Origin: Bacteroidota bacterium
Lineage (GTDB): Bacteria; Bacteroidota; JABWAT01
Assembly (NCBI GenBank): GCA_013360915.1
Contig: JABWAT010000003.1
Location: 62,001-126,000, forward strand
DNA length: 64,000 nucleotides
Reading direction: 5' to 3'
This document shows, one piece after another, positions 19,614-25,167 of this stretch (positions are counted from its first letter, which is position 1; the number at the start of each line of letters is the position of its first letter). Below the pieces are notes generated by a model. It ran no database searches. It had not been told where the DNA came from and saw nothing but the letters and a program-made list of their open reading frames with translations. The translations under genes and the position numbers were made by a program.

Positions 19614-21146
19614 TCAGACCAAACGAATTCCGGCAGCCGTTACCGCCAGAAGGACCGATCGGTTTCTGATCAGAGCCAGACTGGCTTGAATGTCATCGGA
19701 AAAACGGCGGTCACTGTCAGCATGTCTGACCACCTGACGGATGGCCTTGTGAGCGGCTTCCACTCCTCGTCCCGGCCGCACCGGCTGTCTGAAATCGAGG
19801 GCCTGCGCCGCACAGAGCAATTCGATGGCCAGTACCGTTTCGGTATTCTGCAGCACCCGGTATAATTTCAGCGCACCCACACTGCCCATTGACACATGGT
19901 CCTCCTGCCCGAGCGAAGTTGGAATGGAATCGACCGAGGCCGGATGGGCCAGAACCTTGTTTTCTGAAACGAGGGAAGCCGAGGTGTATTGAGGAATCAT
20001 AAAACCCGAGTTAATTCCGGTATCCTGCATCAGCAGTTTCGGCAGTCCGTCGGGACCTTCGAGCAGCAGATATTGCCGCCGCTCAGAAATACTGGCAAGC
20101 TCGGCCAGGGCAATGGCACAATAATCGATGGGCAACGCCAGCGGCTGACCGTGAAAATTCCCACCCGATATGACCGTGGCCGAATCAAAAATTAGCGGAT
20201 TATCAGTTGCCGAATTGATTTCCGTTTCAAGGATTTCCACCGAATGGGCAATGGCATGACGGCTGGCACCGTGTACCTGCGGAACACACCGCAGCGAATA
20301 CGGATCCTGAACCTTCGGACAGTTTTCATGCGATTTCAGAATTTCGGACCGATCCATCAATGACCGGATATTTGAAGCCGTTTCAATCTGACCTTTGTGC
20401 GGTCTTAATTCATGAATACGCGGATCAAAGGGTCGGATGCTGCCCCGGTAAGCCTCAAGAGACATGGCAGCCAGCAGATCGGCCATCCTTAGCAGATAGC
20501 GGGATTCCATCAGGACATAGGCCAGATAGCCAGACATCAGTTGGGTGCCATTGATCAGCGCCAATCCTTCCTTTGATTGCAGCCGGATGGGCTCAAGACC
20601 GTTCAGCGACAGCAGGGCCTGCGCAGGAAGTGTTCCTCCATCCACCCACACCTGACCCATTCCCATCAGCGGAAGAACCAGATGAGCAAGCGGAGACAGA
20701 TCGCCGCTGGCTCCCACCGAGCCCTGAGAGGGTATGACCGGAATCCAGCCCCGATTAAGAAAAAGCATCAGCCGCTCGAGGGTCTCGAGGCGGATTCCCG
20801 AATAACCAAGTGCAAGAGAATTGATCTTGATCAGCATCATCAGCCGGACCACCTGAACCGGAACCGGGTCTCCGACCCCGACCGCGTGGGAAACAATCAG
20901 GTTTTCCTGTAATTTTTCCAGCTGATCAACCGGAATCTGAACCTGACACAACTTGCCAAAGCCAGTATTGATCCCATAGAAGGGCTCGTTCAGACCCTCG
21001 ATCTGTTCAACAGTTTCGCGGGATCGGGCAATCCGTTTCCGGGCTTTCTGTGACAGGTCGACCTGCAGCTGATGCCGGGTAAAAGCCTCGAGGTCGTCCA
21101 GGGTCAGCGGACGCTCTCCGATGGAAAGAGGAGAAGGGGTCTTCAT
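19614..21146 (-). CDS. hutH: Histidine ammonia-lyase
   Basis: Aromatic amino acid lyase (510 aa) that deaminates histidine to urocanate. The self-forming MIO cofactor comes from A146-S147-G148 in GSVGASGDLSPLAH. YGINTGFG near the N-terminus supplies the catalytic tyrosine, and the active-site lid region and QDTGINSGFMIPQYT are present. No hutU, hutI or hutG is nearby, so a full histidine-degradation operon is not shown here. The family also includes phenylalanine and tyrosine lyases; the histidine assignment is by overall resemblance. Confidence 0.9.
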   Translation of the reverse strand: MKTPSPLSIGERPLTLDDLEAFTRHQLQVDLSQKARKRIARSRETVEQIEGLNEPFYGINTGFGKLCQVQIPVDQLEKLQENLIVSHAVGVGDPVPVQVVRLMMLIKINSLALGYSGIRLETLERLMLFLNRGWIPVIPSQGSVGASGDLSPLAHLVLPLMGMGQVWVDGGTLPAQALLSLNGLEPIRLQSKEGLALINGTQLMSGYLAYVLMESRYLLRMADLLAAMSLEAYRGSIRPFDPRIHELRPHKGQIETASNIRSLMDRSEILKSHENCPKVQDPYSLRCVPQVHGASRHAIAHSVEILETEINSATDNPLIFDSATVISGGNFHGQPLALPIDYCAIALAELASISERRQYLLLEGPDGLPKLLMQDTGINSGFMIPQYTSASLVSENKVLAHPASVDSIPTSLGQEDHVSMGSVGALKLYRVLQNTETVLAIELLCAAQALDFRQPVRPGRGVEAAHKAIRQVVRHADSDRRFSDDIQASLALIRNRSVLLAVTAAGIRLV

Positions 21147-21187: not shown

Positions 21188-24073
21188 TCACCCGATGGCA
21201 TCGCGTCGCCGGCGGGCCAGATCTGCCTGCCAGTGATTCAATGTAGATAAAATGGCAATGGCCTTTTCGTAACTTTTCACTGCATCATGATCGTGTTTCA
21301 TGGCCAGCTGACAGTCAGCCAGCACCCGCCAGGCAATGCCTTCCATTTCGGGAATCTGACTTTTCGAGGCCAGACTGAGTGCCGACCGGGCTTGCTTATC
21401 GGCCGGTGACACATCACGCGCAATCAGGTAAGCCTGGGCCCTCAGAATGTACAACTGGGGACGCAGATAATTGAACTGTGACCGGTCCACCAGACCAAAT
21501 GCCTCATCGACCAGATGGTGAGCATGTGCGGTATCACCACTCTCGAGAGCAAACTGTGCCTTCTGAACCAGAACCCGGGCACTGACCAGCGGACTTCCGA
21601 TTTCGGATGCAATTTTCCATGCCTCTGCCAGATAGCCGCCTGCCTCGGAGCCACGACCGGATTCCAGCCTCATTTTAGCCAGGTTGTACAGAGCCAATGC
21701 TTCCGATTCCCGGTCACCGATGGATCTGGAAATATCCAGTCGTTTTCTGAAAAGATCATCTCCCTTATTCAGGTCACCGGTTCGGTAGAAGATTTCACCC
21801 AGATTGCTGTAGACCATTCCGGTTTCACGCTTGGGTGATGATTTCAGAAGAATGTCGAGGGCTTCTTCTCCTGCCCGGATGCTTCGCTCATAATCGCCCA
21901 GAATGCGATAGATCCAGCATTCTTCACCCAGAAGCATGCCGTAAAGCGATACGTTTCCGGAAATCAGTTTTTTGGCACGGGTGAGTAAATTCAGGGCATC
22001 GCCATAGGCTGCGCGGTAGCTGTGAATCTGCGCCATCAGCAGCAGGTTATAAGCGGCACCATACTGATTTCCCCGGGCTTCCATCAGTTTTGCCGATTTG
22101 GTCAGCCGCTTGAACGCTTCATCGTTGCGGCCCAGATACTGAAGAATCTCTCCTTCCTTCTGTACCATGTCGGCGAAATTGGCATCATTCCGCTGAATTT
22201 TAGCAATTTCCCGCGCACGTGAGAAAAAGAGAAAGGCGGTTTCGTAATCGTAAACCTGTTTGGCCTGAACGGCGCAATCCAATGCATACCGGTACGACTT
22301 GTCCCACTCGGCAGCCAGATAGTAATGATCGGCCAGATGGGAGATATCCTTCTCGCTTCCCGTTCGTTTCTCGAGCATGTCGGCTACCTGCCGGTGATAT
22401 CCCCGGCGCTTTTTCATGCTCATTGCATTATACACCACCGACCGGACCATCGGGTGTGAGAAGTGATAAACACCGGTATGTGAGGCAGTGGCAGAATCTG
22501 CAATCACATTTTTAAATTTCAGCGCATCAACCAGCGACTGGACGTGATACTCATTCCGCCCGGACATCCAGCCGATCTGGTCATGGTGAATTTCAAACCC
22601 AAGCACGGAAAGAAAACGGGTGAATTCCATTTCCTCTCTGGTCAGACTCGAGAGTTCTCCCAATACGATATCCTGAATGGTGGTGGGGATATCGAACCCC
22701 TCCTGAGTTTGTCCTTTTTCAATTTTTCTGATCAGTCTGGGACTGGCTACCAGATACTTGGCCAACTCCACTATATAAAGCGGATTTCCCTTCGAAATCT
22801 GGTAAATGAACTCCACCCCTTTTGGTGGCAAGCGCCGGAAAAACCGGAATTCATGACAGAAGGCCGCCGTTTCTTCAAGCGTAAACGGCTGAAGACGGTG
22901 AAACCGGATGGAAGGCTGATTCCGGAGTTCGTAAAACAATTCCCTCATGGACTGAGGGTAGCGCGGATTCTCGAAATCAATTTCACGGGCCGTGATCAGA
23001 ATAAAAATGGATTTGGAAGCAATGCTTCCCGACAGATAGCGAAGAAAATTCCAACTTCCGGCATCGGCATCGTGAAAATCCTCAAACCAGATAACGAGGG
23101 GTCCCGTTTCTGCAACCAGATCGAGGAATCGGATCAGGCTGTCAAACAGAGCAAAGTCATAATGCTGCCCGGGCGTGCTGAAGTCCATCCGGGTAAGCCG
23201 TTCGGCATCCAGTTCGGGCATGATCTGATAGATTTCCCTGATGTCAACCCCGCTTAACCGGTTCAGAAGATCATAAAACCGGTCCTGGTTCTGATGAAGA
23301 AAACGGGAAAGGGCGCGTCTGATCAGGTGATGCGGTGGCGGAATCCGGGCATGGTGCGCCATTCCGAGCAACAGGGTTGGATCAAAGTTTTCGCGGACAT
23401 CAGACAGAAACTGACTGATCAGCTTGGTCTTTCCAATTCCGGCCTGTCCCTCAATGAAAAGAATGCTTCCCTTCGATACCAGAGATTCCCTGAACTGACG
23501 GTTCAGCAAATCCAGATCGGCCTGCCGGCGGATGATTTTGCTCTTCATCGGGAAAAAATACGTCTCGGGAAGGGCCCCGCCCGTATCGACAATCGGAGTC
23601 CGCAGTTTTTTCGATTTGCTGAACAGCTGACGGGCTCTGAAGTAGACGGTTTCGAGGGGTTCGCCCGCCGAGCGGGAAATGGCCGATGCGGCATTCAGTT
23701 TCACTGTCACCGGTTTACCATCGGACCCGGTACCCACTTCCACCGGGGTGGCGGTGATGGTCTGCACCAATTCACCGACCTGGTCGGGACCGGTATGATC
23801 ATACAGAATAAACTCATCACCAGCCAGCCGGAACAGTTTTGTTCCCTTTGGTTTCCGGTTTATCAGCCACAGGGCAACCTTCTCAATGGCCTGGTCGCCG
23901 GTTGAAGAGCCGTATTTCAGGTTCAGGTTTCCAAGTCCCTTGATGTCAATAATCACAAAGGCAGCCGATTGAATGCCGGTATCGGCCAGTCCGGTCTGGC
24001 TGAGCAGATCCAGAAATTCAGTCCGGCCGGGCAGGCTGGCTGCCAGTGGGGTGTCGGTTTGGGTAGCGGTCAT
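21188..24073 (-). CDS. GGDEF domain-AAA ATPase-TPR regulatory protein
   Basis: A large cytoplasmic protein (961 aa) with three parts. Residues about 18-165 form a GGDEF-type cyclase domain whose signature is AGDEF (84-88), with FVIIDIKGLGNLNLKYG before it. About 175-560 is an AAA/MalT-type ATPase with P-loop GQAGIGKT (209-216) and a Walker-B-like LVIWFEDFHDAD. About 600-950 is a row of TPR repeats (for example YNLLLMAQIHSY, YSNLGEIFYRTGDLNKGD, ALYNLAKMRLESG). No DNA-binding domain is seen. The layout mirrors the common class III adenylate cyclase-AAA-TPR proteins with the cyclase exchanged for GGDEF. It could make or sense c-di-GMP or another dinucleotide; this is untested. Six bases after prfA. 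Confidence 0.85.
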   Translation of the reverse strand: MTATQTDTPLAASLPGRTEFLDLLSQTGLADTGIQSAAFVIIDIKGLGNLNLKYGSSTGDQAIEKVALWLINRKPKGTKLFRLAGDEFILYDHTGPDQVGELVQTITATPVEVGTGSDGKPVTVKLNAASAISRSAGEPLETVYFRARQLFSKSKKLRTPIVDTGGALPETYFFPMKSKIIRRQADLDLLNRQFRESLVSKGSILFIEGQAGIGKTKLISQFLSDVRENFDPTLLLGMAHHARIPPPHHLIRRALSRFLHQNQDRFYDLLNRLSGVDIREIYQIMPELDAERLTRMDFSTPGQHYDFALFDSLIRFLDLVAETGPLVIWFEDFHDADAGSWNFLRYLSGSIASKSIFILITAREIDFENPRYPQSMRELFYELRNQPSIRFHRLQPFTLEETAAFCHEFRFFRRLPPKGVEFIYQISKGNPLYIVELAKYLVASPRLIRKIEKGQTQEGFDIPTTIQDIVLGELSSLTREEMEFTRFLSVLGFEIHHDQIGWMSGRNEYHVQSLVDALKFKNVIADSATASHTGVYHFSHPMVRSVVYNAMSMKKRRGYHRQVADMLEKRTGSEKDISHLADHYYLAAEWDKSYRYALDCAVQAKQVYDYETAFLFFSRAREIAKIQRNDANFADMVQKEGEILQYLGRNDEAFKRLTKSAKLMEARGNQYGAAYNLLLMAQIHSYRAAYGDALNLLTRAKKLISGNVSLYGMLLGEECWIYRILGDYERSIRAGEEALDILLKSSPKRETGMVYSNLGEIFYRTGDLNKGDDLFRKRLDISRSIGDRESEALALYNLAKMRLESGRGSEAGGYLAEAWKIASEIGSPLVSARVLVQKAQFALESGDTAHAHHLVDEAFGLVDRSQFNYLRPQLYILRAQAYLIARDVSPADKQARSALSLASKSQIPEMEGIAWRVLADCQLAMKHDHDAVKSYEKAIAILSTLNHWQADLARRRRDAIG

Positions 24074-24078
24074 GTGGA

Positions 24079-25167
24079 TTATCCCTGAAGTTCCGCCTGC
24101 AGTTTTTCAGTTCTTTCCTGAAGTTTCAGCGCGTTGAGCATTTCATCAATGTGTCCATCCATAAAATCCTGCAGTGAGTAAAGGGTCAGACCAATCCGGT
24201 GATCAGTAACCCGTCCCTGAGGAAAATTATAGGTGCGGATTTTTGCACTGCGGTCTCCGGTGGATACCAGACTTTTCCGCTCGGCGGCAATCCGTGCCTG
24301 TTGTTCGGCCAGAGCCTGCTCATACAATCTTGCTCTCAGCACTTTCCAGGCTTTTTCCTTGTTCTTAATCTGTGAATTTTCGTCCTGGCACGAAACCACC
24401 AGTCCGGTCGGAATATGGGTAAGGCGGATGGCGGTTTCAACTTTATTTACATTCTGTCCTCCCGATCCGCTCGCACGAAACACATCGGTCCGCACATCGG
24501 CCGGGTTTATATCAATATCGACTTCATCGACTTCGGGAAGAACCGCCACGGTGGCCGCAGAGGTATGAATCCGCCCGCTGGCCTCGGTTTTCGGCACACG
24601 CTGAACGCGGTGAACGCCCGATTCAAATTTCATGGTACCGTAAACGCCGTCTCCATCGAGACCGAAAACCACTTCCTTTAAACCATTCAATCCGGTGTAA
24701 CCAATATCAACCACATCGATTTTCCAACCACGACGATCGGCATAGCGGGTGTACATTCTGAACAGATCCGCAGCAAAAAGTCCCGCCTCATCGCCACCGG
24801 TTCCTGCCCGGATTTCCACGATGGCAGGATGGGAATCCTCTTTATCCCTTGGAATCAAAGCGGTTTTAAGTTCTTCTTCGAGCCGGCTGGCCGTTTCGTT
24901 TGCGCCGGTGAGTTCATCCTGAGCCAACTGACGCATTTCACGGTCTGTTTCGGTACGGATCATGGTCTGAAGATCCTGAACAGCCTGCATGGCTTTCTGG
25001 TACCGGGTCCATGCCCCGACCACCGGATCAAGTTCACGGAGCTCGCGGCTGAGACTCCGGTAGCGATTCTGGTCACCGATCACTGCCGGATCGGTGAGCA
25101 TGCCGGTTACTTTCACGCGCCGGAGCTCCAGATCGGTCAGCCGGCGTTGCATCGACTCAGTCAGCAT
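24079..25167 (-). CDS. prfA: Peptide chain release factor 1
   Basis: Class I release factor (362 aa) reading UAA and UAG. The catalytic GGQ is at 236-238 in SGSGGQNVNKVETAIR. The stop-codon-reading tripeptide is P-K-T (192-194) in QRVPKTEASGRIHTS, the RF1 form and not the SPF of RF2. Complete at both ends. Its ATG overlaps the stop of the upstream DUF1385 gene by one base, a neighbour frequently seen beside prfA in other bacteria. No prmC methylase gene follows. Confidence 0.96.
   Translation of the reverse strand: MLTESMQRRLTDLELRRVKVTGMLTDPAVIGDQNRYRSLSRELRELDPVVGAWTRYQKAMQAVQDLQTMIRTETDREMRQLAQDELTGANETASRLEEELKTALIPRDKEDSHPAIVEIRAGTGGDEAGLFAADLFRMYTRYADRRGWKIDVVDIGYTGLNGLKEVVFGLDGDGVYGTMKFESGVHRVQRVPKTEASGRIHTSAATVAVLPEVDEVDIDINPADVRTDVFRASGSGGQNVNKVETAIRLTHIPTGLVVSCQDENSQIKNKEKAWKVLRARLYEQALAEQQARIAAERKSLVSTGDRSAKIRTYNFPQGRVTDHRIGLTLYSLQDFMDGHIDEMLNALKLQERTEKLQAELQG

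Follow-up and report, generated by a model that had tools for sequence, protein, structure and literature searches.

The window analyzed here, a stretch of 64,000 nucleotides from a Bacteroidota bacterium, encodes a 961-residue protein in which a GGDEF domain stands ahead of a STAND-type ATPase core and an array of TPR-like helix pairs (Table 1). We consider a cytoplasmic diguanylate cyclase controlled by its STAND ATPase to be the best explanation of this protein and, judging from the sequence, put its probability at about one half. In favor of this reading are the GGDEF fold, catalytic residues that are identical despite GGDEF identities of 40–42%, the dN/dS ratio and the aligned STAND motifs. 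Against it are the losses at PleD positions K332, the Asp after N335 and GRN/R446, a GGDEF domain less conserved than every other part, the erosion of the hhGRE motif, and the lack of PilZ, EAL and MshEN domains in profile searches of the genome. In composition, the protein combines known parts in an uncommon, conserved arrangement and does not amount to a novel type of system.

Table 1. Features of the locus, with positions in the window.
Feature	Position	Strand	Basis or remark
GGDEF-AAA_16(STAND)-TPR protein, complete gene, 961 aa	21188..24073	−	ORF 24073–21188 of 961 codons, start 5 bp past prfA stop; Pfam; orthologues in 3 other genomes
GGDEF domain, residues 13–156	23606..24037	−	Pfam PF00990, E 2.5e-9; model resembles the structures of PleD and the T. 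maritima DGC
GGDEF active-site motifs: DIKGLGNLN (43–51), GD (59–60), AGDEF (84–88)	within 23606..24037	−	
AAA_16 nucleotide-binding domain, residues 181–357	23003..23533	−	Pfam PF13191, E 6.7e-15; motif alignment with cyclase-AAA-TPR relatives
AAA_16 motifs: P-loop GQAGIGKT (209–216), Walker B LVIWFEDFHDAD (326–337)	within 23003..23533	−	
STAND core helical and winged-helix subdomains, residues 358–550	22424..23002	−	Motif alignment; TIGR03903 partial match
STAND core motifs: GNP (429–431), FSHPMVRSVVY with H540	within 22424..23002	−	Motif alignment
About 10 TPR-like helix pairs, residues 553–942	21248..22417	−	Pfam TPR_12 in 5 stretches, E 1.2e-16; helix pairs in full-length model
prfA (peptide chain release factor 1)	24079..25167	−	Pfam PCRF and RF-1; 5 bp upstream of GGDEF gene
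hutH-type aromatic amino acid lyase	19614..21146	−	Pfam PF00221; 41 bp downstream, kept in relatives

Domain architecture and predicted fold

The GGDEF, AAA_16 and TPR_12 matches all exceed the curated Pfam cut-offs, with the GGDEF match scoring 37.6 bits against a cut-off of 23.8. A chance or misassembled ORF was ruled out by orthologues of nearly full length (54–56% identity) in three other genomes. At the N-terminus, Pfam finds the GGDEF domain and no class III cyclase domain (PF00211, Guanylate_cyc). The protein has no transmembrane segment by hydropathy (the highest 19-residue Kyte–Doolittle mean, 1.27, lies in the ATPase core), and neither Pfam nor the profile search that returned TIGR03903 matches a DNA-binding domain in the protein itself. 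The absence of membrane and DNA-binding segments, as given in the preliminary description, is thereby borne out, leaving aside the winged-helix subdomain of the STAND core, which is normally structural.

Residues 1–178, modeled with AlphaFold2 together with the three orthologues, gave a pLDDT of 77 and a pTM of 0.76. When this model was compared to the PDB with Foldseek, the matches listed were GGDEF-domain structures, the best being activated PleD with c-di-GMP (2v0n; E 3.2e-11, TMq 0.70), with Thermotoga maritima TM1788 close behind; a sequence profile search concurs. The region previously called GGDEF-like, for which a structure prediction had been proposed, is thus predicted to adopt the diguanylate cyclase fold and belongs to the GGDEF profile family, and a different fold for residues 18–165 is ruled out by the model and its matches. 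In the full-length model, the TPR-like helix pairs are mostly at pLDDT 85–97 from about residue 650 on, while the STAND ATPase core, modeled from a shallow alignment, is of low confidence.

The ATPase core carries the motifs of STAND proteins. Besides the P-loop, it has a Walker B motif with the extra acidic residue (WFEDFHDAD, corresponding to EDxHxxD), and both the GNP (GxP motif) and winged-helix H540 align with relatives. In PH0952, the GxP motif touches the nucleotide, and the winged-helix His binds its phosphates (PMC6468293). The hhGRE motif preceding the P-loop has eroded to IIRRQADL; in one relative it reads ISFRKREL. The core motifs align with those of three class III cyclase-STAND proteins from other Bacteroidota genomes (22–23% identity over the core), and the TIGR03903 kinase/cyclase model matches residues 180–616, the ATPase part only, with 114.3 bits; the curated whole-protein cut-off is 705.75 bits, which places the protein outside the TOMM kinase/cyclases. 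The STAND proteins MalT and PH0952 likewise join a STAND core to a helical-repeat sensor towards the C-terminus, and in these two an inducer drives ADP/ATP exchange and multimerization (PMC4381067, PMC6468293). The output of MalT is transcription, whereas that of the window protein would be the N-terminal GGDEF domain.

In the nearest relatives of the ATPase outside this bacterial class, a class III cyclase occupies the same N-terminal place, and of the plasmid matches to the ATPase region that carry an annotation, most are called adenylate/guanylate cyclase or AAA proteins. These cyclase-bearing relatives point to the exchange of one palm domain for another on a chassis already known; GGDEF domains have the same fold as class III cyclases. 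The earlier view that a GGDEF domain occupies the cyclase position thus agrees with both the predicted fold and the class III cyclase-STAND relatives. The closest known systems, the class III cyclase-AAA_16(STAND)-TPR proteins (L034, L035, L006, those of rhizobial plasmids and, as a distant model, TIGR03903), have the same order of a palm-type N-terminal cyclase followed by a STAND core, with helical repeats after the core in L035 as in the window protein. Their product would be cAMP or cGMP, whereas that expected of the GGDEF domain is c-di-GMP, and the window protein differs further in its eroded hhGRE. There are also PknK-like multidomain kinases that pair AAA_16 with a GGDEF domain, which is C-terminal in them. 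A published parallel for the swap comes from STAND/vWA conflict systems, where GGDEF replaces the cNMP cyclase on occasion (PMC7159879).

Conserved and lost residues of the GGDEF active site

The T. maritima enzyme and the genome's own canonical GGDEF domains served as references for aligning the GGDEF domain, and the functions of the PleD residues were taken from PMC7288161 and PMC12943098. The metal ligands and catalytic Glu of diguanylate cyclases (D43, D86 and E87, corresponding to PleD D327, E370 and E371) and the guanine contacts (N51 and D60, corresponding to N335 and D344) are present and identical in all four orthologues, in a domain with about 31% invariant columns. The GGDEF motif reads LAGDEF (residues 83–88), and [A/S]GDEF is a signature of the bacterial class, with AGDEF in the window protein and SGDEF in its three relatives. 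The exact GG[D/E]EF sequence, absent here, is usual in diguanylate cyclases but not strictly required, because AGDEF and SGDEF enzymes are both active, in Vibrio and Pectobacterium (PMC3974145). The AGDEF motif singled out in the preliminary description is therefore real but not strange as such: AG(D/E)EF occurs in about 1.6% of GGDEF domains, and with natural variants active (PMC3974145), the motif alone does not imply an inactive domain.

The picture on the phosphate side is different, as the set formed by PleD K332, K442 and R446 is incomplete. Gly48 takes the position of K332 (the "FK" lysine) in four of four orthologues, Leu52 stands where an Asp follows N335 in PleD, and the GRN motif at the C-terminal end, which includes R446, is lost; the K442 position holds K or R. 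The corresponding segment of the T. maritima enzyme likewise has no GRN, and its second DxD position is Ala. Although K332 has been described as contacting phosphate through its main chain only (PMC7288161), it has also been named a transition-state stabilizer (PMC12943098), and its replacement is the most serious doubt on the putative catalysis. The unusual GLGNLN segment is invariant in the class, and no RxxD I-site is present upstream of AGDEF in the window protein. On balance, the kept residues favor, without proving, an enzyme that would convert GTP to c-di-GMP, and between the two roles originally left open, an ATPase-gated synthase or a protein that senses the signal, they lean towards the enzyme.

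Compared to PleD and TM1788 (4urg/4urs), with which it has the GGDEF fold and the main catalytic residues in common, the window protein starts the motif with A/S, lacks both a K332 equivalent and an I-site, and has its GGDEF domain at the N-terminus with the sensor behind. To our knowledge, the enzymes VCA0965 (AGDEF) and ECA3270 (SGDEF) have no ATPase-TPR module. Both are active with these same variant motifs (PMC3974145) and differ from the window protein in family and regulation.

Locus, orthologues and distribution

The gene and prfA are probably co-transcribed. Pfam identifies the other neighbors as DUF1385, an aminotransferase class IV and a polysaccharide flippase, and no signaling gene adjoins the locus among the neighbors identified, consistent with its reported placement between prfA and hutH away from other signaling genes. 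Orthologues with 54–56% identity make the gene present in four of four genomes examined from its class-level Bacteroidota lineage, where the order DUF1385-prfA-X-hutH is kept (X being this gene) and prfA directly adjoins X in two of the three relatives. In UWPOB_BACT1 alone, a YhcG/DUF1016 PDDEXK nuclease gene (L024:4910–5902) lies between prfA and X. The copy in this genome is split over two contigs, which share an exact 127-bp end overlap and hence represent one gene. The two closest orthologues give dN/dS values of 0.054 for the GGDEF domain and 0.049 overall, ratios that are rough because dS is saturated. Conservation is lowest in the GGDEF domain, with 40–42% identity to the window protein versus 50–68% elsewhere.

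The 395 Bacteroidota genomes searched include these four, and outside them no match covers both domains. When 84,980 species genomes were scanned with two short peptide patterns, which reach close relatives only, the same relatives alone came up. A literature search found no described example of a protein with GGDEF, AAA/STAND and TPR parts. For the domain order, which the preliminary description suggested searching for, the 391 other Bacteroidota genomes sampled and the literature searched thus give no further example; phyla beyond Bacteroidota were sampled weakly, through plasmids only, and the distribution may be wider. A mobile or viral origin was rejected, with no relative among viral contigs and phage records matching mainly the GGDEF stretch. 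Four such records of uncultured phages from human feces (MT837409, MT839792, MT836492, MT836119) contain unannotated GGDEF-like stretches with 27–30% identity to the GGDEF domain described here.

Proposed mechanism and alternatives

If the protein is a STAND-gated diguanylate cyclase, its resting state would be a monomer closed around ADP and shut by the TPR array. Binding of an inducer, which may be a protein or a small molecule, to this array would let the STAND core swap ADP for ATP, open and oligomerize, and oligomerization would in turn pair the N-terminal GGDEF domains in antiparallel fashion, the arrangement that GGDEF enzymes need, so that they could turn GTP into c-di-GMP. Since there is no RxxD I-site, the usual product inhibition would be absent, and the ATPase cycle would act as the main off-switch. 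More tentatively, the protein may represent a new class of c-di-GMP enzyme, derived from a cyclase swap and a core gene of one bacterial class, in which control of a variant GGDEF domain with [A/S]GDEF, no FK lysine and no I-site lies with a STAND/TPR switch and not with a membrane or two-component sensor. The STAND outputs known so far are mostly transcription, cell death or defense; if c-di-GMP is made, an NLR-like ATPase switch would have a direct link to the chief lifestyle messenger of bacteria. Such an enzyme would also make class III cyclases and GGDEF domains interchangeable outputs, and it would be a test of how far the canonical GGDEF active site can be reduced.

The main rivals of this reading are a degenerate GGDEF domain that senses GTP and one that binds the product. 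A GTP sensor would bind GTP with Mg2+ but not condense it, and its occupancy would tune the STAND switch. This would suit a site that keeps the metal and guanine contacts and has lost the K332 and R446 equivalents, and PMC7288161 cites a precedent in Caulobacter CC3396, whose GGDEF domain senses GTP and activates an EAL partner. We regard it as possible but doubtful: the catalytic E87 and the metal-binding D86, less needed by a pure binder, are invariant, and Pfam finds no attached output domain such as EAL. It is unlikely that the domain is instead a c-di-GMP receptor, or a GGDEF-GGDEF docking module for another GGDEF protein of the genome, signaling to a STAND-TPR part that acts on a partner protein. 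Degenerate GGDEF domains usually serve as receptors through the RxxD I-site, and none lies upstream of AGDEF, even though a receptor is missing in this genome, which has four more canonical GGDEF ORFs and none of the known c-di-GMP receptor domains.

Two further explanations have far less to recommend them. An antiphage or conflict STAND sensor, for which the cyclic nucleotide made by the GGDEF domain would be an alarm signal, seems decidedly improbable. Defense genes are normally patchy, whereas this one occurs in all four genomes of the class in a housekeeping neighborhood (prfA, hutH) that contains neither effector nor receptor genes, and viral contigs yielded no relative. In its support, one relative has the YhcG/DUF1016 nuclease gene next door, and replacement of a cNMP cyclase by GGDEF has been reported in conflict systems (PMC7159879). 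Production of cGAMP or another dinucleotide by a hybrid-promiscuous enzyme, an option also raised in the preliminary description, is scarcely to be expected: the GLGNLN segment is unusual and invariant, but another dinucleotide is disfavored because the guanine-contact Asp D60 (PleD D344) is kept, where the Hypr cGAMP enzymes have Ser (PMC7288161).

For a STAND-gated diguanylate cyclase, the rest of the genome offers a plausible setting. Five more GGDEF ORFs are present, one of them degenerate and four canonical, together with two ORFs of the HD-GYP type and six that encode class III cyclases. The canonical GGDEF and HD-GYP ORFs make c-di-GMP turnover plausible, while profile searches of the genome place no EAL, PilZ or MshEN domain over the cut-off. 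One long ORF (L017, G000:C4:80401–80871) ends in a clearly degenerate GGDEF domain with VGPATF for GGDEF and EID for DID, and a receiver-type ORF (L055, G000:C6:49180–49638) has at its end a class III cyclase domain that is divergent and scores 36.7 bits.
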